The notes under the pieces are model-generated. The model ran no database searches. It was not told the DNA's origin and saw nothing but the letters and a program-made list of their open reading frames with translations. Positions 21,177 through 37,923 of a DNA stretch of 64,000 nt are shown piece after piece; positions within the stretch are counted from its first letter, which is position 1; each line of letters opens with the position of its first letter. Location: assembly GCA_003559215.1 (NCBI GenBank), contig PWMF01000058.1, positions 1 to 64,000 on the forward strand, given 5' to 3'. This DNA comes from Natrialbaceae archaeon. GTDB taxonomy: Archaea > Halobacteriota > Halobacteria > Halobacteriales > Natrialbaceae. Made by a program: the position numbers and the translations under genes.

Positions 21177-22190
21177 CTACTCGTCGTCTCGATCCCGTTC
21201 GCGCTCGGCCCGCGTAATCTGCTCGAGCCGGCGACGCTGTTCACGGTGCAGCGTCACGAGCATGTCCGAGAGCACGCCGAACATGAGCAGCTGCACGCCG
21301 AGCAGGATCGCGGCCGCGGAGACGACCGCCAGAATCTCGTGGCCCTGCTGGTACTGGATCCACTGCCAGAGCACGTACATCGCCACGACGCCGCCGGAGG
21401 CGATGCTCGCCGCGCCGAGACTCCCGAAGTAAAACAGCGGGTTGTTCGTCTTCGCCAGCGAGTACAGCGCCAGTACGATCGTCCCGCCGTCCCTGAGCGG
21501 GTGGAGGTTCGTCTCCGAGGCCTCCGGGCGGGCGCTGTAACTGACCGGGACGACCGTCGTGTCGACCCCGTGTTTGACGCACTCGACGGCGAGTTCGGTC
21601 TCGATCGTGAACCCGTCCGAGTCGAGCGCGAGGCGTTCGAACGACTCGGTCGTAAACGCCCGGTACCCCGAGAGGATGTCCTCGTACTCGGCGCCGTGGA
21701 TCAGCCGAAACGAGCGGTTGATCAGTCTGTTTCCGAACCCGTTCAGCGCCTTCATCGCGTCGTCGTCCATCTCAGCAAAGCGGTTTCCGATGACGTGCTC
21801 GTACCCCCGCGAGAGCTGCTCGAGCATGCGCTCGGCGTCGGCCGGGTCGTAGGTGCCGTCGCCGTCGACCATCAACACGTACGGAACGGTGACGTACTCG
21901 AGGGTCTCCCTGACCGCCTGACCCTTCCCGTCACCGGCCTGCGTGAACACCTGGGCGCCCCGCTCGCGTGCGATTTCGCGCGTCTCGTCGTCGGAGTCTC
22001 CGTCGACGACGACGACGTTCGAGTACCCCTGTTCGTAGAACCCGTCGATCACACTGCCGATCGTCGCCGCCTCGTTCAGCGTCGGGATGAGGACGCAGAC
22101 CTCGTCGGCCGAAATATCGCGCGTGCGATCACTCATCGACAGGAACGCCTCCCGCTCGAGCGTCGACGCGCGGACCCCGTCATGCTCCAT
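21177..22190 (-). CDS. aglJ: Dolichol-phosphate hexosyltransferase AglJ (GT2, two membrane helices)
   Basis: 337 aa from ATG 22190; an alternative start is 22136 (MSDRTRDIS). It adds the first hexose to dolichol phosphate in archaeal N-glycosylation. GT2 motifs: VCVLIPTLNEAATIGSVIDG, VVVVDGDSDDETREIA, GDGKGQAVRE, and VLMVDGDGTYDPADAE with the DxD-like DGD. DILSGYRAFTTESFERL and NLHPLRDGGTIVLALY match my recollection of Haloferax AglJ closely. Two C-terminal transmembrane helices (~255-280 and ~288-312) anchor it. It starts the minus-strand side of the glycosylation region. Confidence 0.88.
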   Translation of the reverse strand: MEHDGVRASTLEREAFLSMSDRTRDISADEVCVLIPTLNEAATIGSVIDGFYEQGYSNVVVVDGDSDDETREIARERGAQVFTQAGDGKGQAVRETLEYVTVPYVLMVDGDGTYDPADAERMLEQLSRGYEHVIGNRFAEMDDDAMKALNGFGNRLINRSFRLIHGAEYEDILSGYRAFTTESFERLALDSDGFTIETELAVECVKHGVDTTVVPVSYSARPEASETNLHPLRDGGTIVLALYSLAKTNNPLFYFGSLGAASIASGGVVAMYVLWQWIQYQQGHEILAVVSAAAILLGVQLLMFGVLSDMLVTLHREQRRRLEQITRAERERDRDDE

Positions 22191-24566: not shown

Positions 24567-25298
24567 CTACTCCGGAATCGGTGCCTCGGCTTCCCGCACG
24601 CGTTGTTCGGCTTCCTCCCGATCCTCCGGGTAGCCGACGTCGATCCGCCAGCCGTCCATCCGGATCGCGTCGATCGTCCGCCCCGACTGGATGAGGAGGT
24701 CGATCGCGTCGGGCAGTTCGTACTCCCCCCGGTCGGAGGGCTGGACGAGGTGGCAGGCGTGGAAGATCGCGGGGGTGAACGTGTAGAAGCCGGTCATCAC
24801 GAGGTTCGACGGCGGCTCGTCGGGGTTCTCGACGACCTCGACGATCTCGCCGTACTCGTTGGTGTCGAGCACGCCGTATCGAGAGGCCTCCTCGTAGGGA
24901 ACCTCCTCGACGAGAAAGGCCGCGTCCGCGCGCTCCTCGTGCTGGCGTTTGATCACGTCCCCGAGGTTCCCCCGGAAGACGTTGTCGCCGAGCATGAGCA
25001 CGAAGTCGTCGTCGACGTGGGGCTCGGCCTGCAGAATCGCGTGACCGAGTCCGAGCTGTTCGCGCTGGTGGGCGTAGGTGATCGGGACACCCTCGTAAGC
25101 GTCGCCGTAGCGCTCGATGAGTTGCTCCTTCTGGTAGCCGACGACGACGACGAGTTCGGTGACGCCGATCTCGAGCAAGTTGTCGAAGACGTCCTCGACG
25201 AGCGGTTTCCCGTCGACTTCCACGAGGGCCTTGGGTTTCTCCTCGGTTAGCGGCCGGAGGCGAGTTCCCTCGCCGGCGGCCAGCACGACTGCTTGCAT
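24567..25298 (-). CDS. aglF: Glucose-1-phosphate uridylyltransferase (AglF-like)
   Basis: 243 aa from ATG 25298. MQAVVLAAGEGTRLRPLTEE is the nucleotidyltransferase signature (G-x-G-x-R) and EKPKALVEVDGKPLV continues it. GYQKEQLIERYGD, QREQLGLGHAIL, MLGDNVFRGNLG and NLVMTGFYTFTPAIFHACHL are nearly as I recall Haloferax AglF, which makes UDP-glucose for N-glycan assembly. WRIDVGYPEDREEAEQR is the C-terminal signature. It is separated from aglJ by the origin and orc1. Divergent specificity (UTP versus dTTP) cannot be settled by eye. Confidence 0.86.
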   Translation of the reverse strand: MQAVVLAAGEGTRLRPLTEEKPKALVEVDGKPLVEDVFDNLLEIGVTELVVVVGYQKEQLIERYGDAYEGVPITYAHQREQLGLGHAILQAEPHVDDDFVLMLGDNVFRGNLGDVIKRQHEERADAAFLVEEVPYEEASRYGVLDTNEYGEIVEVVENPDEPPSNLVMTGFYTFTPAIFHACHLVQPSDRGEYELPDAIDLLIQSGRTIDAIRMDGWRIDVGYPEDREEAEQRVREAEAPIPE

Positions 25299-25421: not shown

Positions 25422-26408
25422 TTACGAGCAGCGCTCACAGGCGACTGCACGGAGATCCGGATGCGCCGCGAACTCGCGGTGCTCCTCCGGGAGTTCCTCG
25501 AGGGAGTCCGCCGCCGCGAAGCGCTCGCGGATCGTCGCCCAGCGTTCGTGGCGAACGACGACGATGACGGGCACCGACTCGAGGCCGAGCAGCTTCGTGA
25601 TCGACAGCCGGTGTTTCCCGGCGCTGAACCGAATTATCTCGCCGTTCCGGCCGATTCCGACGCGCATCTCGTGGGGGAACTCGGTTCCCAAGATCGGTTT
25701 CATCGCGGCGCCACCGGTCTCCATGTCGTCGTCCTCGCGCTCGAGGAGTTCGTCCTGGGGGACGTACCCCTCCTCGGCCATCGACTCGTAGAGGGCGTCG
25801 ATGTCGGCACACCGACGCTCGAGTTCCTCGATCGTCGACGACCGCCAGTCCCCGAGCCCGTTCTCGATCTTGTAGGCCGCGTACCGGTACTTGGCGGTTA
25901 CCTCCCAGGGCTCGCCCTCCTGGAACCGGGCCTCGAGCGAGCGGTGGATCCGGGTCTCGGCCCACTCGGTTCGAAAACGGTCCCAGCGGCCGCCGACGAC
26001 CCCGACGATCGGCTCGTCGTGTATCGGCGAGCGTTTCGTATCGCCGTCTTTCGTCGGAAACTGGGCTTTTCCCAACCGCGACTGATACCGAAGATCGGCC
26101 GGATCGATCTCGACGACCGTCGGAAGATCCGACGCCGGTGGGTCGCCGGCCGCGTCCCGTCGACGAATCGCCCACCAGTAGCCGAACGCGTTCTCGTACA
26201 GGCATCCGAAGATTCGGCCGAGAGCCCCGGAAACTCCCGCGAGTTGGTAGAAAACCAGCAACTTCCGCCACGACGCGGTTAGTGCCGCGAGAAAGAGAAT
26301 CTGGTATTCGGCGTCGGAACCGCCGAGATTCCCGGCACCTCCCGTTCGGCCGTGTTCGTCGAGTGCGATCGATCCCGTCAGAAAAAACTCTGCGAGGACG
26401 GCGTTCAC
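25422..26408 (-). CDS. ParB/sulfiredoxin-like domain protein, paralogue 1 of 3
   Basis: 328 aa from GTG 26408. The N-terminal ~85 residues are hydrophobic/aromatic and not shared with the paralogues except for length. Then come the shared blocks: VVEIDPADLRY (~95), a long insertion, GGRWDRF, HRSLEARFQEGEPWE, DIDALYESMAEEGY, and the C-terminal RNGEIIRFSAGKHRLSITKL followed by LGLESVPVIVVVRHERW. That last block resembles the D-G-x-HR-x-A...LG...VPV core of ParB N-terminal/sulfiredoxin-fold domains. The end, HPDLRAVACERC, is shared with paralogue 2. Divergent from paralogue 2 with a 59-bp intergenic region. Function unknown. Confidence 0.7.
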   Translation of the reverse strand: MNAVLAEFFLTGSIALDEHGRTGGAGNLGGSDAEYQILFLAALTASWRKLLVFYQLAGVSGALGRIFGCLYENAFGYWWAIRRRDAAGDPPASDLPTVVEIDPADLRYQSRLGKAQFPTKDGDTKRSPIHDEPIVGVVGGRWDRFRTEWAETRIHRSLEARFQEGEPWEVTAKYRYAAYKIENGLGDWRSSTIEELERRCADIDALYESMAEEGYVPQDELLEREDDDMETGGAAMKPILGTEFPHEMRVGIGRNGEIIRFSAGKHRLSITKLLGLESVPVIVVVRHERWATIRERFAAADSLEELPEEHREFAAHPDLRAVACERCS

Positions 26409-26467
26409 GTTGGATCCAGTGATTTAACGTGGGGGTAGAGTTACTAATACGTGAGGGAATCGGTAGA

Positions 26468-27391
26468 GTGAGTCTCGTACACAGATCTCGACGAATACTC
26501 CGCGAAGACGGCGTTCCGTCCCTGCTGTGGCGATCGATACGGTTCGTCTGGACGACGGCCGTCTGGCGCCGGGAACTCGTCCAGCGGCTCCCCGCGAGAG
26601 CGGTCGCCCTGGCGTTTGCGGTCCGGAGTCGGCTCCTTCCCCACGTGAGCGACGCGAACCCGGCTCGGCCGGTCCGGGTCGACCCCGATGAGATCGAGTA
26701 CTACCACGGCAGCGACGATCCCTGGCGGCTCGGCCACGTCATCGACGGCGACTGGGACGAGCCCGAGGGACGGTTCGAGGAGACGGCCGTCTACCGGTCG
26801 CTCGAGGCCCGGTTCCTCGAGGGCGCCGACTGGGAGGAGACGGAGCTGTACGCCGAGTACCGCGACCGACTCGAGGCCGGCGATCCGTACTGGCGGTGTA
26901 CAACGGAGGCGGAACTCGAGGCCTACTTCGATCGGATCGACGACCTCTACGAAGCCGTCGCCGACGAGGGGTACCGCTCCCAGCGGGAGCTGCTGGCCGA
27001 CGACGACGCTGACCCCCGCGGAGAGAACACCGACGCGGTCCACCCGGTCGTTCAGGAGATCGGCGTCAACGTCTACCGCGACGGCGAGTTGGTCAAGAAG
27101 GGCGCCGGCTTCCACCGGCTGGCGATCGCGAAGCTGCTCGACCTCGAGGAGATTCCGGTGACCGTGCGGGTTAGACACGCCGACTGGCAGGCGATCAGGG
27201 ACGAGATCCGCGCCGCCTCGAGCCGTGAGGAGCTGAGCGAGCGCGCGGAGTCCAATCTCGCGCACCCCGACCTTCGAGACGTCGTTCCCGAGCGGTGGCG
27301 CCAGTCGAGGGCCGAACCGACGGCGGGCGCGGAGCGCGAGCCGTCGCAGACGGACGACTCCGACGACGACGTCCCGGTTCCGCAGCGGTAG
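26468..27391 (+). CDS. ParB/sulfiredoxin-like domain protein, paralogue 2 of 3
   Basis: 307 aa. GTG 26468 is preferred over GTG 26429: a TATA-like TTACTAATA sits ~24 bp upstream and the resulting N-terminus (SLVHRSRRILREDG) aligns with paralogue 3 (SHLLERVKEIWRRDG). Shared blocks: VRVDPDEIEYY, GDWDEPEG, YRSLEARFLEGADWEETELY, RIDDLYEAVADEGYRSQREL, and DGELVKKGAGFHRLAIAKLL then LEEIPVTVRVRHADW. After HPDLRDVVPERW there is a ~30-residue acidic tail. The conserved His-Arg pair (FHR) and VRH are candidate active-site residues. Followed 55 bp later by paralogue 3. Confidence 0.7.
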   Translation: MSLVHRSRRILREDGVPSLLWRSIRFVWTTAVWRRELVQRLPARAVALAFAVRSRLLPHVSDANPARPVRVDPDEIEYYHGSDDPWRLGHVIDGDWDEPEGRFEETAVYRSLEARFLEGADWEETELYAEYRDRLEAGDPYWRCTTEAELEAYFDRIDDLYEAVADEGYRSQRELLADDDADPRGENTDAVHPVVQEIGVNVYRDGELVKKGAGFHRLAIAKLLDLEEIPVTVRVRHADWQAIRDEIRAASSREELSERAESNLAHPDLRDVVPERWRQSRAEPTAGAEREPSQTDDSDDDVPVPQR

Positions 27392-27445
27392 CCGACGCGC
27401 GTCGAGCCAGCACGGTTAACTACTGCTGCCCGGAACGTCTCGGAC

Positions 27446-28162
27446 GTGTCCCATCTCCTCGAGCGGGTGAAAGAGATCTGGCGGCGGGACGGCGCTCTCG
27501 CGGTCGCCGACGAGACGGCCGCGTACCTCCGGTGGCGTCTCGAGGGCTCCGCGGCGTACGGCGCGGTCCGGACCCGCGAACTCGAGTTCCGGAACCGCTG
27601 CGTCGACGCCGACCCGTTGCAGCTCACGTGGGTCGACCCCGCCGAGATCGAGTACGTCGTCGGTGAGCTCGTTCCCGACCAGACTGACGATTCCCATTTC
27701 GAACGGCCGAACGTCCCGACCCAGGGGCGAGACGGGGTCGGCGCCGTCCGCGGAGGTGAGTGGGACCGACCGACGGTCCCGTTCACCGACCTCTCGGAGT
27801 ACCGACTGCTCGAACGGCACTTCCTTGAGGGCGTCCCCTGGACGGAAACCGAGTTCGTCGACCGTCACCGTCGCTCGCCCGACTCGAACTGGAGCGAGCG
27901 GAAGCTGTTGCACAAGCTCGAGCGGATCGACGATCTCTACGAGACGATCGCGACGGACGGCTACAGGACCCAGCGCGAACTCGGCGGTCACCCGCTGAAC
28001 GAGATCATCGTCTACGCCGGTCGGGACGGCGAGCTTCGGTGGCACGAGAACGGTCGCCACCGGCTCGCGATCGCGAAGCTGCTCGACCTCGAGTCGGTAC
28101 CCGTGCTGATCACGGTTCGCCACCGAAAGCTGCTCTTTCCGGGCGAGCGCTCGCCCCCGTAG
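27446..28162 (+). CDS. ParB/sulfiredoxin-like domain protein, paralogue 3 of 3
   Basis: 238 aa from GTG 27446. The most compact member: an N-terminal helix (SHLLERVKEIWRRDGALAV), then TWVDPAEIEYVVGE, GGEWDRPTVPF, YRLLERHFLEGVPWTETEF, RIDDLYETIATDGYRTQREL, and DGELRWHENGRHRLAIAKLL with LDLESVPVLITVRHRKL. It lacks the tail after VRH that the other two carry. Co-directional with paralogue 2 and probably in the same transcript. Surrounded by glycosyltransferases, so a role in surface-glycan synthesis is plausible but unproven. Confidence 0.7.
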   Translation: MSHLLERVKEIWRRDGALAVADETAAYLRWRLEGSAAYGAVRTRELEFRNRCVDADPLQLTWVDPAEIEYVVGELVPDQTDDSHFERPNVPTQGRDGVGAVRGGEWDRPTVPFTDLSEYRLLERHFLEGVPWTETEFVDRHRRSPDSNWSERKLLHKLERIDDLYETIATDGYRTQRELGGHPLNEIIVYAGRDGELRWHENGRHRLAIAKLLDLESVPVLITVRHRKLLFPGERSPP

Positions 28163-28191: not shown

Positions 28192-29100
28192 TCAGTTCAC
28201 GCACACCGCGAGCCGGCTCTTCGCCTCGAGGACGGCCAGCAACGCTCCGCAGCTGATACTCGCTGCCAAGTAGTAGCAGTGGTAGCGTGCGTTCCCGGGG
28301 TCGATCGCCAGCGCGTGCCTGAGGTAGGCGGCCGCCGGCTCCCGTCGTCCGTTCTCGGCGTAGATGATCGCGACGTTGGCCGCGAACTCGGCGCGTCGTC
28401 GTCGGCCGACGTGCTCGCCGTGGCGCTCGAGGACTTGTCGGTAGCCCTCGAGTTTCCGCTCGGGATCCGTTCCGATCCGTTCGCCGTCGGTGTGGCGGTC
28501 CAGGAGTACCTCGGGGACGCCCCTGATCTCGGCGCCCTCGTCGGCCGCCAGCAGGCGCAGGTAGAACTCGTAGTCCTGGACGGCGGGCAAGTCCTCGTCG
28601 AGGGGGCCGACGTCGTCGAACGCCGACGCACGAAACGTCGTCGCCGAGAAGCTCCCGACGGGGTTGCCCCGCCCGAGCTCCTCGAGCGTGACCCGCTCCT
28701 GTGCCCGGATGACGTCGTAGACCGCGCCGCCCCGGCGCTTCCGGTAGGAGGTGTAGACGCCGCGAACCTGTTCGGTTCCCGCCCGAAAGGTCTCGAGGAC
28801 CCGCTCGACGTGGGTCGGCGCCAGTTCGTCGTCCGAGTCAAGAAAGGAGACGAACTCGCCGGTCGCACGTTCGATTCCTCGGTTCCGGGCCGCGTTCGCC
28901 CCGTTGTTTGCCCTGGTCTGGAGATACACCAGCCGGTCGTCGTCGTACGAATCGAGGACTGCGTCGGTCCCGTCGGACGAGCCGTCGTCGACGACGATCA
29001 CCTTGAGGTCGTCGGACGTCTGTGCGAGCGCGCTGTCGATCGCCCGACCGACGACCGACGCGCGGTTGTACGTCGGGATGACGATGCTGACCGCGGGCAT
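28192..29100 (-). CDS. Family 2 glycosyltransferase
   Basis: 302 aa from ATG 29100. GT-A fold: VSIVIPTYNRASVVGRAIDS, VIVVDDGSSDGTDAVLDSYD, NGANAARNRGIERATGEFVS and FLDSDDELAP (DxD). VGPLDEDLPAVQDYEFYLRL is the acceptor-side signature. The C-terminal ~60 residues contain a TPR-like stretch (ANVAIIYAENGRREPAAAYL). Cytoplasmic, no membrane helix. Donor and acceptor unknown; the location implies N-glycan or S-layer glycan assembly. Divergent from the next GT2. Confidence 0.87.
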   Translation of the reverse strand: MPAVSIVIPTYNRASVVGRAIDSALAQTSDDLKVIVVDDGSSDGTDAVLDSYDDDRLVYLQTRANNGANAARNRGIERATGEFVSFLDSDDELAPTHVERVLETFRAGTEQVRGVYTSYRKRRGGAVYDVIRAQERVTLEELGRGNPVGSFSATTFRASAFDDVGPLDEDLPAVQDYEFYLRLLAADEGAEIRGVPEVLLDRHTDGERIGTDPERKLEGYRQVLERHGEHVGRRRRAEFAANVAIIYAENGRREPAAAYLRHALAIDPGNARYHCYYLAASISCGALLAVLEAKSRLAVCVN

Positions 29101-29172
29101 TCCGTTATCCCACCTCTCGCCCCCGAAATGAAAGCCCTTTTGATCGGGCCCGAATACTGCTAAACGAACTCG

Positions 29173-30066
29173 ATGACGACCGTCTCGATCATCACGCCCG
29201 TCTACAACGACTTCCCGGGGCTCCGCGAGACGGTCGACTCGCTCGCGGCACTCTCGACGAGCGTCGACTGGGAGTACACGGTCGTCGACAACGGCTCGAC
29301 CGACGGCACGTACGACCGCGCCGCGCGTTACGTCGAGGATCGACTCGAGGGCACCGTCCTGCTCGAGGACGGGATCCAGTCCTCCTACGCGGCCCGCAAC
29401 GCCGGCGTTCGCCACAGCGACGGCGACGTCCTCGCCTTTGTCGACGCCGACATGACCGTTCCCGAGGGATGGCTCGGGGACGCCCTCGACGTCTTCCGGG
29501 CCGCGGAGGCCGACTACATGGGTTGTGCCGTCGAGCTCGAGCTTCCCGACGACCCCTCGGTCGCGGCCCGCTACGACCACCACTCCGGCTTTCCGGTCGG
29601 CCACTACCTCGAGCACCAGCGCTTCGCTCCCACCTGCTGTCTATTCGTCCGCCGAGAGGTCTTCGCCGATGTCGGCCTCTTCGATCACCGGCTGACCTCC
29701 GGGGGCGACAAGGAGTTCGGCAATCGGGTCGACGAGGCAGGGTACGACCTCCACTTCGCGCCTGGCGTCACGATGTTTCACCCCGTCCGGGACTCGCTCG
29801 GCGCACTCGTCCGGAAGGACCTCCGCGTCGGCCAGGGGCTCTGCCAGCTCCAGTGCTACCACCCCGATCGGTACGGGTCGCCCGGGATCCCACCCCGACC
29901 CTCGGGCGTCAAGCAACCCGACCCCGACCTCGAGCGACGGGAGCGGCTGACCTTCGGCGCGCTCGAGACCGCGCTAACTGGGGTTCGCGGGATCGGCTAC
30001 TACCGCGAGTACCTCGCGGGCGAGCGAGCGCGTGGGCCCGGCGAAGCTCCCGAACTCGAGGACTGA
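29173..30066 (+). CDS. Family 2 glycosyltransferase
   Basis: 297 aa. VSIITPVYNDFPGLRETVDS, TVVDNGSTDGTYDRAARYVE, SSYAARNAGVRHSDGDVLAF, VDADMTVPEGWL (DxD: DAD), and CLFVRREVFADVGLFDHRLT with GGDKEFGNRVDEAG. This architecture is frequent in haloarchaeal glycosylation clusters. It lacks the C-terminal membrane helices of AglJ. The last ~60 residues (CYHPDRYGSPGIPPRPSGV onwards) are variable. Single gene, with 253 bp of non-coding sequence after it. Confidence 0.87.
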   Translation: MTTVSIITPVYNDFPGLRETVDSLAALSTSVDWEYTVVDNGSTDGTYDRAARYVEDRLEGTVLLEDGIQSSYAARNAGVRHSDGDVLAFVDADMTVPEGWLGDALDVFRAAEADYMGCAVELELPDDPSVAARYDHHSGFPVGHYLEHQRFAPTCCLFVRREVFADVGLFDHRLTSGGDKEFGNRVDEAGYDLHFAPGVTMFHPVRDSLGALVRKDLRVGQGLCQLQCYHPDRYGSPGIPPRPSGVKQPDPDLERRERLTFGALETALTGVRGIGYYREYLAGERARGPGEAPELED

Positions 30067-32570: not shown

Positions 32571-33530
32571 TCAGGCGGTCGGCGCCTCCTCGACCTCGTC
32601 CCGAACGAGCGCGTCGTCGGACCGGACGAGCCCGTATAGGTAGCCGAAGCCGACAGCCGCGGTAAACACGACGATGGCGACCAGCTGTTTGGCCTTCGCG
32701 CTCGAGGGCTCGCGAACGAGGTCTCGAAGCCGCGAGGGAACGAACTCGAGCATGAGCTGTTGCAGATACTCGTTCTTGTCGCCCGCGGCCTCGGGCAACA
32801 GGAGGTCCATGATCCGCTTGGAGTACCCCTGCCAGAACGAGCGGAAGACGAGCCACCGGAAGTCGCCGCGATAGTCGAACAGTTTGTGGTGGACGACGGC
32901 GTCCGTGTTGTAGATCACGCCCTTGCCGTACCGGTTCGCCATCCGGATACAGACCGGGGCCTCGTGGGCCTGTATGTGGCGGTCACCCTTCCGGCCCGTG
33001 TTCTCGTCGTAGCCGCCGACCTCGAGGAAGACGTCACGGCGAAAGGAAATGTTCGAGCCGTAGGTGTTGCGAAGCTCCTCCATGTGCTCGCCCATCCCGC
33101 GCTCGTCGCAGCCGACGAGCCAGTAGAACTCCTCGGGGAAGAAGTCGGGCTTCTCGGTGACCCAGTCGGGCTTGGCGTGACCGCCGACGGCGATCGCGTC
33201 GGTCTCCTCGTAGACGCGGACCAACTCCGCGATCCAGTCGGGCTCGGCGACTGCGTCGTCGTCGATGAAGGCGACGACCTCGCCGCTGGCGATCTCGGCG
33301 CCCCGCGTCCGGCTGTAGGAGATCCCTCGGTTCTCGTCGTTACAGCGGAGGACGACCTCCTCTCGGTCCCCGTACTCCTCGCTGACGCACTCGAAGACAG
33401 CCTCGTTGCCGTCGACGACGACGACGACCTCGAGCGGCTCGTACGTCTGTGCGAGCACGCTATCGACGCACTCCGAGAAGACGTCGTAGCGCTCCATCGC
33501 GTACGTACAGACGACGGCGGAGACCTTCAT
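32571..33530 (-). CDS. aglG: Glucosyl-dolichyl phosphate glucuronosyltransferase AglG-like GT2
   Basis: 319 aa from ATG 33530. VSAVVCTYAMERYDVFSECV, VVVVVDGNEAVFECV, NDENRGISYSRTRGAEIASG, VVAFIDDDAVAEPDWI (DDD) and NTYGSNISFRRDVFLEVGGY are close to my recollection of Haloferax AglG. A terminal hydrophobic segment (QLVAIVVFTAAVGFGYLYGL) is probably a membrane anchor. The longer upstream frame is rejected: a TATA-like AGTTTATTC lies ~40 bp upstream of this ATG. Divergent from aglB, 193 bp apart. Distinction from other AglG/AglI-type transferases is by memory only. Confidence 0.8.
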   Translation of the reverse strand: MKVSAVVCTYAMERYDVFSECVDSVLAQTYEPLEVVVVVDGNEAVFECVSEEYGDREEVVLRCNDENRGISYSRTRGAEIASGEVVAFIDDDAVAEPDWIAELVRVYEETDAIAVGGHAKPDWVTEKPDFFPEEFYWLVGCDERGMGEHMEELRNTYGSNISFRRDVFLEVGGYDENTGRKGDRHIQAHEAPVCIRMANRYGKGVIYNTDAVVHHKLFDYRGDFRWLVFRSFWQGYSKRIMDLLLPEAAGDKNEYLQQLMLEFVPSRLRDLVREPSSAKAKQLVAIVVFTAAVGFGYLYGLVRSDDALVRDEVEEAPTA

Positions 33531-33723: not shown

Positions 33724-36651
33724 ATGAGTACGGAGACCGAACGAGCCGAGGAGCGGACGGAACCGTCCGTTCTCGGCTCGTGGGAAGAGTGGTACCACGT
33801 CCCAGTCGTCGGGGCCGTGATGCTGTTTATGTTCTGGGTCAGAACACAGTCGTACGAGGCCTTCGTCACCGATGACGGGACCCCCGCACTCGCGGGCGTC
33901 GACTCCTGGTACCACTGGCGGACGATCCAGTGGACGGCCGAGAACTACCCCCGAACGATGCCGTATGAAGTCTGGACGGGCTTTCCAACCGGCAACTACG
34001 TCGGCCAGTTCGGAACCCTCTTCGACCAGCTGATCGTCACCGCCGCGATGATCGTCGGTCTCGGGGAGCCCTCCTCGAGCACGCTGTACACCGTCTCCTT
34101 GCTCGCGGTGCCGGCGATGGCGGCGCTGGTCGCGATTCCCGTCTTCTACCTCGGTCGACGACTGGGCGGGACCGTCGGCGGACTCGTCGCCGTCGTTTTG
34201 CTCGCGCTCGCCCCCGGCCAGTTCCTCGTTCGGACCACGGCGGGACAGCTCCAGCACCACGTCGCCGAGGTGCTGTTCATGGCCGTCGCCGTCCTCGCGA
34301 TGACCGTCGCGCTGCGGGTCGCCGAGCGCGAGCAACCCATCTACGAACTCGTCGCCGACAAGAACTGGGACGCGCTCCGACAACCGACGATCTACGCCGC
34401 GTTGGCGGGGATCGCGCTCGCGCTGTATATTTGGGTCTGGCCTCCCGGGGTCGTCCTCATCGGAATCTTCGGCGTCTTCTTCGCGGTTCAGCTCTGTCTC
34501 GACTACGTCCGGGGGATCTCCCCCGATCACGTCGCGTTCGTCGGCGCCGTCTCGCTGGGCGTGACCGCGGTCGCGACGACTCTGCTGATCGAGGAACCCG
34601 GCACGAGCGTCACGAGCTTCGGCTACCTCCAGCCGGGCACCGCGGCGCTGGTCGCCGTTGGCTGTCTGTTCATGGCGTGGTTCGCCCGTCAGTGGAACGC
34701 CCGCGGGATCGATCGGCGGTTCTATCCGGGCGCGATCGCCGCCCTGATCGTCGGCGCGTTCGCGGTCATGTGGCTCGTCCTGCCGGACTTCTACGAGACG
34801 CTCGTCGGGAACCTCACCGGACGGCTCATCCCGCTCGATCCCGATGCTGGAACGCTGACGATCCAGGAGGCCCAGCCGCCCGACGACTTCACGGCCCACG
34901 TATTCAGCGAGTTCGGCACCGCCTTCTACACGATGCTCGCCGGGCTGGCGCTGTTGATCGCCCGACCGCTGTTCGGCCGGAAGTACCGCGCAGAGTACAC
35001 GCTGATCCTCGTCTGGTCGCTGTTCCTGATCAGCATGTCCGCGACTCAGATCCGCTTCTCGTACTATCTCGTCCTCGCGGTCGCCGTCGTCAACGCCGTC
35101 TTCGTCGCCGACGTCGTGCGGCTGTTCGATCTCGACCTCCAGCGCGGCGCGCGGTCGCTCGAGGGAGTCGAGACCTACCAGATCATCATTCTGTTCGTGG
35201 TCGTCCTGTTGCTGTTCGCGCCGCTGCTCCCGGTCGTCGCCGCCGACGGCGACACGGCGATCGATCGCGGCGAGGCCACGGGGCCACACCCCGACGCGAT
35301 GGTCTGGGAGGAGTCGACCCACTGGCTCGAGTCGAACACCCCCGAACCCGGTAACTACGGTGGTGCCGACAGGGCCGACGAACTCGAGTACTACGGCAGC
35401 TACGACTACCCCGACGGGGGCGACTTCGACTATCCCGAAGGTGCCTACGGCGTGCTGTCCTGGTGGGATTACGGCCACCTGATCACGACACAGGGCGAGC
35501 GGATTCCCCACTCGAACCCGTTCCAGCAGAACGCCGAGACCGCCTCGGCGTTCCTGACCGCCGAGTCCGAGCGGGGGGCCGAGCTGATCCTCGAGGCGAT
35601 GGCGGCCGGCGAGGACCCGCTGGACGGGGACGATAACGTTCGCCCGCTCGAGGAGCTCGAGGCGGCGGTCGACGACGACGCCGACGAGCAGATGCGGTAT
35701 GTGATGATCGACGACCAGATGGCGGGCGGGAAGTTCAGCGCGATGACCGCCTGGTCGGGCCCCGACTACGACCACTACGTCACGCCCGACGTCGAGGCCG
35801 GCGAGGAGATCGATCGCGACGAGGTCGACGACAGCCTCGAGGTCCCCTACGAGGATACGATGGTCGCGGGTCTCTACTTCGACGACGCCGCGGGGATGGA
35901 CAACTATCGGCTCGTCCACGAGAACGATCAGCGCACGGCCGGTTTCGTCAGCTACGCGCTGATCGACCCCGAGACCGATCAGGTGCTCACCGACGAGACC
36001 GGCCAGCACCAGGTTGCAATCAACCAGCCCCTCGATCAGCAGACCGAGATCCAGCTCTCGCAGTTCGAGCAGAGCCCCGACGTCGACGTCGAGTACATCG
36101 ACGAGCGCGAGGGTGCCGCGGTCAAGACCTACGAGCGCGTCGAGGGTGCGACGATCGTCGGCACTGCCCCCGACGCAGACGAGGGTGACGCGGTGACCGC
36201 AGAACTCGAGCTCGACTCCGGAGTCGATCGCGACAGCTTCACTTACGAACAGGAGGCCGAAGTCGACGAGAACGGCGAGTTCGAGCTGACGGTGCCGTAC
36301 GCGACCGACGACGAGCTCGACGTCGAGGACGGCTACACCGAGAGCGCCGTCGAGGCCGTCGACGAGTACACCGTGACCGTCGAAGGCGAGACACCCCAGC
36401 AGGGCGACATCGAGGTCCCCGAGAGCGCGGTCGTCGACGGTGAGATCGTCGAGGTCGACCTCGAGGAGACGGCGCTCGAGGCCGACGATGCCGCGGCTGA
36501 CGACGAAACGGACGGTACCGAGAACGGCGCCGACGATGCGGGCGACACCGCCGACGAGGACGATGATACCGGTGCCGAAGCCGACGACGGCGAGGACGCC
36601 GACGATACCGCCGGCTCGCTCGTCCCGACTGCAGCCGGACTCGCGGACTGA
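33724..36651 (+). CDS. aglB: Oligosaccharyltransferase AglB
   Basis: 975 aa. It transfers the lipid-linked glycan to Asn of exported proteins. The N-terminal half has about 13 membrane helices. GVDSWYHWR (residues 58-66) contains the catalytic Asp of the first external loop. SWWDYGHLITTQGERIPHSN (~579-598) carries the WWDYG acceptor-recognition motif of STT3/AglB. The extracellular C-terminal domain is very acidic and ends in an Asp/Glu/Ala/Thr-rich tail (~910-975). It follows aglG on the opposite strand and closes the glycosylation region. A convergent gene follows after a hairpin with a T/A run. Confidence 0.95.
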   Translation: MSTETERAEERTEPSVLGSWEEWYHVPVVGAVMLFMFWVRTQSYEAFVTDDGTPALAGVDSWYHWRTIQWTAENYPRTMPYEVWTGFPTGNYVGQFGTLFDQLIVTAAMIVGLGEPSSSTLYTVSLLAVPAMAALVAIPVFYLGRRLGGTVGGLVAVVLLALAPGQFLVRTTAGQLQHHVAEVLFMAVAVLAMTVALRVAEREQPIYELVADKNWDALRQPTIYAALAGIALALYIWVWPPGVVLIGIFGVFFAVQLCLDYVRGISPDHVAFVGAVSLGVTAVATTLLIEEPGTSVTSFGYLQPGTAALVAVGCLFMAWFARQWNARGIDRRFYPGAIAALIVGAFAVMWLVLPDFYETLVGNLTGRLIPLDPDAGTLTIQEAQPPDDFTAHVFSEFGTAFYTMLAGLALLIARPLFGRKYRAEYTLILVWSLFLISMSATQIRFSYYLVLAVAVVNAVFVADVVRLFDLDLQRGARSLEGVETYQIIILFVVVLLLFAPLLPVVAADGDTAIDRGEATGPHPDAMVWEESTHWLESNTPEPGNYGGADRADELEYYGSYDYPDGGDFDYPEGAYGVLSWWDYGHLITTQGERIPHSNPFQQNAETASAFLTAESERGAELILEAMAAGEDPLDGDDNVRPLEELEAAVDDDADEQMRYVMIDDQMAGGKFSAMTAWSGPDYDHYVTPDVEAGEEIDRDEVDDSLEVPYEDTMVAGLYFDDAAGMDNYRLVHENDQRTAGFVSYALIDPETDQVLTDETGQHQVAINQPLDQQTEIQLSQFEQSPDVDVEYIDEREGAAVKTYERVEGATIVGTAPDADEGDAVTAELELDSGVDRDSFTYEQEAEVDENGEFELTVPYATDDELDVEDGYTESAVEAVDEYTVTVEGETPQQGDIEVPESAVVDGEIVEVDLEETALEADDAAADDETDGTENGADDAGDTADEDDDTGAEADDGEDADDTAGSLVPTAAGLAD

Positions 36652-36762: not shown

Positions 36763-37923
36763 TCACGACGATTCACCGTCCGTCGCGGCCAGCGCCCGGA
36801 ACACGATCGTCGGGAACCGGGGGACCACCGTGCTGGGACGGCGCCCGCTCCCGTTCGTCGGGAGCGGCACCCGTTCGATGACGCCCCGATCGGCGAGCTC
36901 GTACAGGAACCGTTTGACCGTCCCGGCGGTCAGCCCCGATCGGTCGGCGATTTCGGTCGCGACCTCGCGGATGGGCTGGTCGACCGCGTCGACGGCGATC
37001 AGGTCGCACAGCACCCGCTGGCGCGTCTCCGAGAGTGAGAGTGTCCGGTCGACGTGGACGCCGGCGTCGGGAACGTTCTCCATCGCCCGCTCGAGGTGGG
37101 TCCGTTCGATCCGATCCGCGTCGTCCTCGCCGGCCAGCACCGCCGCGCCGAACAGCGCCGCGAGCGCGTCGTGGGCGTTGCCGTCGGCCCAGACTGCGAT
37201 CTCGCGGACGGTTTCGTGTTCGAGTGCGCCCGCTGTCAGCCCCGTGGACGTCCGATCGGTGACGACGTCGACGAGTTCGTGGTGGCGGTAGGCCGGCGCC
37301 GTCACCGTCGTCCCGCGCCAGCTCTCGGGCTCGTCTTGGCCGACGGCGAGCGTCGAGACGCTCTCGCTCGCCGGCTCGACGAGCTCCTGAACGCGATCGT
37401 AGGAGAGGGTCTCCGGCTCGTCGTGGTGATCGACGGCCACGACGGCTCGTCGGTCCGGTCGCGAGAGTCGGGTACAGAGCCGCTCCCGCAGGTCGTCGGT
37501 GCCGACGCCGCTCTCGGGGACCGAGTCCGGGGAGATCATCGAGAGCACGGTCCGGTAGAACGCGAAGGGGCTTCCGACGCGTCGGGTGTCGACGTAGACG
37601 AACCACGTCACCGTCCCGGTGCTGCCGGCTCGGGTCGTCGTTCCGATCGTTCGGGTCGGCTCGCCGAGCCGTTCGTTCAACGCGCCGAACAGCGCCGTCA
37701 CGATCGCGGACGTGCCGGCTCCCGCCGGCCCGACGAGCGTTGCCGGTTCGGGCAACTCGTCGTCGAACACCGGCTCGAGCGCGTCGAGCAGCTGCTCGAG
37801 CACGGGGCCTCGTCCCACCGGCTCCGCGCGGTGGACGACTGGGCTGAGGTGGTTGCGGTTGACGACGATCCCGCTCGTTCGGTGCGCGGATCGTCGTCTG
37901 GCGATGCGCTCCTCGAGGTTCAT
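36763..37923 (-). CDS. Cdc6-like AAA+ protein with degenerate Walker A
   Basis: 386 aa from ATG 37923. The overall order matches Orc1/Cdc6: RNHLSPVVHRAEPVGRGPVL before the P-loop, an AAA+ core, a lid (NAHDALAALFGAAVLAGE, THLERAMENVP), and a C-terminal winged helix (LSETRQRVLCDLIAVDAVDQ, GLTAGTVKRFLYELADRGVI). But the P-loop reads GPAGAGTS (65-72), with Thr in place of the essential Lys, and the Walker B region reads VVAVDHHDE. ATP hydrolysis is therefore doubtful. Its ATG overlaps the glpC stop (TGATG), so it is translated with the glycerol-3-phosphate dehydrogenase operon. Could be a regulator derived from Cdc6. Confidence 0.8.
   Translation of the reverse strand: MNLEERIARRRSAHRTSGIVVNRNHLSPVVHRAEPVGRGPVLEQLLDALEPVFDDELPEPATLVGPAGAGTSAIVTALFGALNERLGEPTRTIGTTTRAGSTGTVTWFVYVDTRRVGSPFAFYRTVLSMISPDSVPESGVGTDDLRERLCTRLSRPDRRAVVAVDHHDEPETLSYDRVQELVEPASESVSTLAVGQDEPESWRGTTVTAPAYRHHELVDVVTDRTSTGLTAGALEHETVREIAVWADGNAHDALAALFGAAVLAGEDDADRIERTHLERAMENVPDAGVHVDRTLSLSETRQRVLCDLIAVDAVDQPIREVATEIADRSGLTAGTVKRFLYELADRGVIERVPLPTNGSGRRPSTVVPRFPTIVFRALAATDGESS

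Follow-up and report, generated by a model that had tools for sequence, protein, structure and literature searches.

Three related genes within an N-glycosylation cluster

The window, that is, the whole 64,000-nucleotide stretch analyzed here (positions 1 to 64,000 of contig PWMF01000058.1 from a Natrialbaceae archaeon), contains a haloarchaeal N-glycosylation cluster of the Natronococcus type, with three related genes, A, B, and C, in its middle:

21177..22190, minus strand: AglJ N-glycosyltransferase (TIGR04182, 442 bits, cut-off 325)
24567..25298, minus strand: AglF, UTP--glucose-1-phosphate uridylyltransferase (NCBIfam NF041313, 430.5 bits, cut-off 400)
25422..26408, minus strand: paralogue A, 328 residues, long form with HPD tail (open reading frame, dN/dS)
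26429..27391, plus strand: paralogue B, 320 residues, long form with HPD tail (open reading frame, dN/dS, AlphaFold model)
27446..28162, plus strand: paralogue C, 238 residues, short form without the W253/HPD tail (open reading frame, dN/dS, orthologues, AlphaFold model)
28192..29130, minus strand: GT2 glycosyltransferase, start of reading frame uncertain (PF00535, E = 2e-35)
29173..30066, plus strand: GT2 glycosyltransferase (PF00535, E = 4e-24)
32571..33530, minus strand: AglG glucuronosyltransferase (NF041394, 533 bits, cut-off 440)
33724..36651, plus strand: AglB oligosaccharyltransferase (TIGR04154, 885 bits, cut-off 450)

AglJ, AglF, AglG, and AglB each score above the curated NCBIfam cut-offs. 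A preliminary description of this DNA had named aglF and two GT2 genes as the flanks of the three paralogues; the NF041313 and PF00535 matches bear this out, with AglJ, AglG, and AglB lying farther out. An Orc1/Cdc6-like gene adjoins aglB (36763-37803), its score of 59.8 bits being far under the family cut-off of 181.

The called starts of A and B are divergent and 20 bp apart, and B and C lie in tandem with a gap of 54 bp. Because all three genes begin with GTG, their start codons are uncertain. C ends right after its VRH motif, upstream of where W253 and the HPD tail would lie in B numbering, and its orthologues are likewise short. BLASTP aligned A with B at 45% identity over 193 residues (E = 2e-41), C with B at 41% over 208 residues (E = 4e-32), and A with C at 33% over 192 residues (E = 1e-20). 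Judged by these local identities of 33-45%, the three are distant paralogues, in the arrangement of one divergent and two tandem genes described earlier, and the motif blocks that had been quoted as common to them are found in their sequences.

Against Natronococcus orthologues, dN/dS was 0.34-0.46 for A, 0.21 for B, and 0.15-0.17 for C. Values of 0.15-0.46 indicate that all three are maintained genes under purifying selection. Each falls in its own well-supported orthologue clade, and the A-B-C triplet is also present in other genomes of the same genus (G002, G003, G005, and G007). The A orthologue of G005 (contig C34, 59923-60866) appears to be divided between two frames, perhaps through a frameshift or an error of sequencing. 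The genome of the window itself has three more family copies, on contigs C160 and C195.

Conservation and distribution of the family

We aligned 89 family members (alignment A2) and collected a larger set of 113, with a median pairwise identity of 30%. In B numbering, W109, G219, R230, and H250 are invariant in the family alignment, and P78, P86, G107, D110, W135, T138, L173, G181, R217, G227, H229, P243, R249, W253, and HPD 279-281 are nearly so. R230, the arginine of the P motif GxxR (Box II), is present in all 113 aligned members, while column 228, the variable position of GxHR, is chiefly R, N, K, Q, or H among the 89.

Of 119 close relatives, 69 carry the family, with a maximum of 12 matches in a single genome. 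Of 391 sampled haloarchaeal genomes, 151 (about 39%) have it, representing 53 of 85 genera. The family is an accessory trait, since it is absent from two near-complete genomes of the window's genus. Outside the order, members occur in three genomes of the Halobacteriota phylum sample; their neighbors include genes for GT2 enzymes, a DegT-type sugar aminotransferase, a cytidylyltransferase, and a sulfotransferase. Searches of plasmids by tblastn with three different queries returned haloarchaeal matches only and no bacterial members, and a scan of genome contigs with patterns from close relatives likewise gave haloarchaeal members only. Phages yielded no match or just weak ParB-like proteins, and no member was found in viral contigs. 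Five long open frames near members, considered as gene fusions, were spurious read-through or carried no fusion.

No Pfam or NCBIfam model claims the 89 alignment members, and single searches of Pfam, NCBIfam, and PHROGs with A, B, and C gave no significant match. Members on plasmids are labeled hypothetical protein or are unannotated, and no published description of the family was found in the literature searched, which left out most subscription papers. The family is a common component of haloarchaeal surface-glycan loci, yet it has no Pfam or NCBIfam model and is annotated as hypothetical where checked.

A predicted ParB/sulfiredoxin fold

The features of the fold and the conserved motifs map to the three genes as follows:

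26654..27193, plus strand: ParB/Srx domain of B, about residues 76-255, with an insert at about 95-160 (VIA alignment over about 80-255, secondary structure of the model, hhalign)
26747..26758, plus strand: GDWD motif of B (W109 invariant; D110 in all members but one)
26969..26983, plus strand: GYRSQ of B, placed by hhalign on the Box I (C motif) loop GVLQP of ParB
27107..27118, plus strand: P motif GFHR of B (R230 invariant; GxxR as defined in PMC12704722)
27170..27178, plus strand: VRH of B, end of the last strand (H250 invariant)
28052..28063, plus strand: P motif GRHR of C
25455..25463, minus strand: HPD of A
25608..25619, minus strand: P motif GKHR of A
25980..25991, minus strand: GRWD of A
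26100..26108, minus strand: IDP of A

The AlphaFold models of B (pLDDT 88.4) and C (pLDDT 89.1), which were built from largely one alignment and are not fully independent, matched almost exclusively structures of ParB, Noc, KorB, sulfiredoxin, SbnI, and SerK. For the C model, the best 32 Foldseek matches all belonged to the ParB/Srx superfamily or to 2hwj, an uncharacterized protein that is a structural relative. Their probability reached 0.98, and with a best E-value of 0.009 the fold call rests on agreement across many matches and not on any single score. The best 32 rows given by VIA for the same model were again ParB/Srx members or 2hwj, with Z-scores of 6.2 to 3.5; the next unrelated entry scored 2.1. 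In a search of a viral structure library, the best matches were ParB-like or nameless and superposed poorly.

Profile alignment points the same way. With hhalign, the family core matched 20 archaeal ParB-fold sequences with a probability of 94.5 and a score of 51.6; the reversed control scored 24.1, and none of 20 column-shuffled controls exceeded 14.5. The register places LYExIxxxGYxxQ on LANTIDEMGVLQP and GxHRLAIAKLL...IPV on GERRWKASQ...IPA, so that VDPxEI corresponds to the first strand, LYE..GYxxQ to Box I, and the final block to Box II. The GxWD, YRSLE, and WEET motifs lie within a family-specific insert. Prediction and profile alignment together thus assign the ParB/Srx alpha-beta fold to the family. 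The preliminary description had confined a ParB/sulfiredoxin-like domain to the last ~100 residues. Both models and hhalign uphold the fold, but not this extent: the domain runs from the VDPxEI strand to VRH and makes up most of the protein.

Comparison with known ParB-fold proteins

The best profile links of the family lead to SerK, the archaeal ADP-dependent kinase of free L-serine, and SbnI, the O-phosphoserine synthase of Staphylococcus. The links are weak (SerK, 6 of 89 members, best E = 0.001; SbnI, 7 of 89, best E = 0.009), and the family does not reach the NCBIfam cut-off of either. Both share with it the fold, a GxHR motif followed by IPV, and the lack of a helix-turn-helix (HTH); the third position of GxxR is His in the family and in SbnI/SerK-like proteins alike. 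In contrast to SerK and SbnI, the family has no conserved Asp before GxHR, carries the large GxWD/WEET insert, and occurs in a glycan context, and just the ParB-fold part of these enzymes aligns with it. The residue directly before GxHR is Asp in 32 of 89 members, Ala in A and B, and Asn in C; this position is D69 of SerK and D58 of SbnI. The catalytic Glu after the first strand is E30 in SerK and E20 in SbnI. D110 is a candidate counterpart of this Glu, the residue match being uncertain owing to the insert.

Sulfiredoxin, which also has His at the third position of GxxR, shares the fold and the His-Arg of GxHR. However, the catalytic Cys of its GGCHR motif is replaced by F, K, and R in B, A, and C, respectively, and the family adds the insert and N-terminal helices. 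Lacking this Asp and this Cys, the family does not belong to SerK/SbnI or sulfiredoxin under their definitions, but it may still act in a similar way. The sulfiredoxin GGCHR does occur in a divergent relative from outside Haloarchaea (L165 1501-2175 / L188 2574-3404, genome G156), whose P motif, GGGGCHR, contains a Cys like that of sulfiredoxin and which has DNW in place of DWD.

The ParB, Noc, and KorB CTPase clamps share the fold, with the Box I loop and Box II in register. They differ in having GERR where the family has GxHR, and in their neighborhoods, those of the family holding glycan genes. Furthermore, Pfam recognized no HTH or C-terminal dimerization domain in A, B, or C, and at most chance single matches in the 89 members. 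Neither A, B, and C nor the family genes in family genomes reach the curated cut-off of PF02195; searches of relatives with PF02195 and SerK matched other proteins and not the A-C family. The sole PF02195 ParB-type gene in the window's own genome (L001 964-1170, G000:C203) lies on a 4 kb contig.

A recent survey presents the ParB-CTPase fold as a general-purpose module for NTP binding to which individual lineages have added parts of their own, and describes its domain search as one with PF02195 (Kaljevic et al. 2025, PMC12704722). The superfamily is known, and its spread was shown by that work, but PF02195 does not detect the family studied here, and we found no glycan-locus family in the main text of PMC12704722.

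Genomic context

We compared 80 family neighborhoods with 20 control stretches from the same genome set. Among 134 near neighbors, Pfam identified Polysacc_synt (18), Glycos_transf_1 (14), Glycos_transf_2 (11), GT61 (6), NTP_transferase (5), and Sulfatase (4), none of which was among the 25 commonest families in 133 control genes. A glycosyltransferase of any kind was present in 76% of family loci and 15% of controls, although such counts are neither fully independent nor exact, as loci were picked by E-value rank, several of them from one genome, with simple composition-based gene calls. GT2 genes occurred in 38 of 80 family loci, MATE-type flippases in 36, AglB in 26, and ABC exporters in 19; the 20 controls held one flippase and none of the others. 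The flippase frequency was 8.4% for the immediate neighbors and had dropped to 0.5% seven to nine genes away; for ABC exporters, the corresponding values were 6.8% and 0.5%. Loci in which profiles found no glycosyltransferase contained ABC exporters, PAP2 phosphatases, epimerases, and O-antigen ligases. The family is thus strongly and steadily associated with glycosyltransferase, flippase, and oligosaccharyltransferase genes above control, and the suspected neighborhood link to glycosylation holds well beyond the window.

Two recurrent neighbors have no Pfam match (L108 11089-12132 and L063 12402-13517); they occur in 6 and 8 loci, respectively, and in no controls, most strongly at one to two genes' distance. 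Neighbors that we read as sulfatase-like, with the motif LLLDACRYD (L108 9882-10913, L100 3426-4430, and L089 8134-9141), seemingly have an N-terminal helix segment and a DWD motif in common with the family. Searches for an N-terminal module common to the family and other glycan proteins gave weak profile matches at best (E = 0.004).

Thirty fetched loci carry 2-5 members each. Co-located members are 24-44% identical, a closer relative is always found elsewhere, and nearly all co-located copies retain R217, R230, H250, and D110. Recent tandem duplication is ruled out, since co-located copies are always distant. Copy number and glycosyltransferase count were weakly and not significantly correlated (rho = 0.24, p = 0.051). 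This copy pattern is that of substrate-specific enzymes, divergent in the way glycosyltransferases are.

Proposed function

The best explanation, which we hold tentatively, is that A-C are stand-alone archaeal ParB/sulfiredoxin-fold proteins of a previously undescribed family dedicated to surface-glycan assembly. With similar reserve, we picture an NTP-dependent peripheral-membrane transferase, most probably of a kinase-like type, whose substrates would be lipid-linked glycans or their sugar precursors. It is somewhat more conjectural that the family forms a new glycan-assembly enzyme class, in which ParB-fold NTP-dependent transferases phosphorylate or otherwise modify archaeal lipid-linked glycans, with a paralogue per step. 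The family carries the ParB/Srx fold into sugar-coat assembly and suggests that the synthesis of archaeal N-glycans or polysaccharides includes an unrecognized step that depends on a nucleotide.

In the proposed mechanism, the N-terminal helical segment probably holds the protein at the cytosolic face of the membrane. The segment is net basic in most members (median +0.09 per residue, compared with -0.05 in the rest of the protein) and has no transmembrane stretch in 96% of 78 members; A and C of the window have no net positive N-terminus. The GxHR P motif and the GYxxQ loop would bind NTP, either ATP or CTP. Precedent for this is that replacing the Arg of GxxR by Ala abolished binding in the ParB-fold proteins tested (PMC12704722); against it, a published screen saw NTP binding in vitro for only 11 of 28 purified proteins with this fold (PMC12704722). 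D110 of the insert and H250 may form the reaction center, which supposes, as a guess, that the two are grouped at the nucleotide pocket. By analogy with SerK and SbnI, the group transferred would most likely be the gamma phosphate; it would pass to a sugar or lipid-linked glycan before flipping, and the different paralogues of one locus might serve different sugars or steps, like glycosyltransferases. R230, D110, and H250, being invariant or nearly so, make the family directly open to point-mutation tests combined with glycoproteomics.

An enzyme is suggested by the enzyme-like conservation pattern, with W109, G219, R230, and H250 invariant and D110, R217, H229, and HPD nearly so. The missing SerK/SbnI Asp in A, B, and C, and the missing HPD tail in C, argue against it. 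The main rival, unlikely yet the strongest of the alternatives, is a nucleotide-dependent switch or adaptor that performs no glycan chemistry: the protein would dock on glycosyltransferases or flippases and, through an NTP-driven conformational change, gate glycan assembly, polymerization, or flipping. Three proteins with this fold, ParB, Noc, and VirB, act as NTP switches (PMC12704722); A, B, and C lack the catalytic residues of SerK and sulfiredoxin; and flippase enrichment peaks at the immediate neighbors and drops fast. However, no HTH or C-terminal dimerization domain was recognized, 2-5 divergent copies per locus are hard to square with a single switch, and the invariant H250 and the near-invariant D110 lie outside known nucleotide motifs. 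We lean slightly toward an enzyme over a switch for the A-C family: the predicted fold, the conserved P motif, the genetic context, and purifying selection are results of the analysis, while NTP binding, membrane docking, catalysis, and the substrate are inferred.

We consider it improbable that the family forms a new class of sugar transferases or of enzymes processing sugar nucleotides, with an NDP-sugar taking the place of the NTP. The distribution and paralogy of the family mimic those of glycosyltransferases, GT4 genes overlap or directly adjoin some of the copies (14 same-strand neighbors lie within 60 bp), and GT61 genes are among the most local neighbors. On the other hand, we know of no ParB-fold protein that uses nucleotide sugars, and ordinary glycosyltransferases are already present in these loci. 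A Noc- or VirB-like role in regulating the glycan locus by local DNA binding, to which the fold of DNA clamps and weak PHROG matches to ParB-like partition proteins might point, is very improbable for stand-alone proteins that show no recognizable HTH and no PF02195 match at these genes, in their own genome or in family genomes, and whose mostly basic N-terminus is more like a membrane anchor.

On a plasmid of Natronorubrum daqingense (L198), a family gene lies beside genes for an archaetidylserine decarboxylase, a PAP2 phosphatase, a sugar transferase, and aglF, a neighborhood that raises a possible link to archaeal lipid chemistry.
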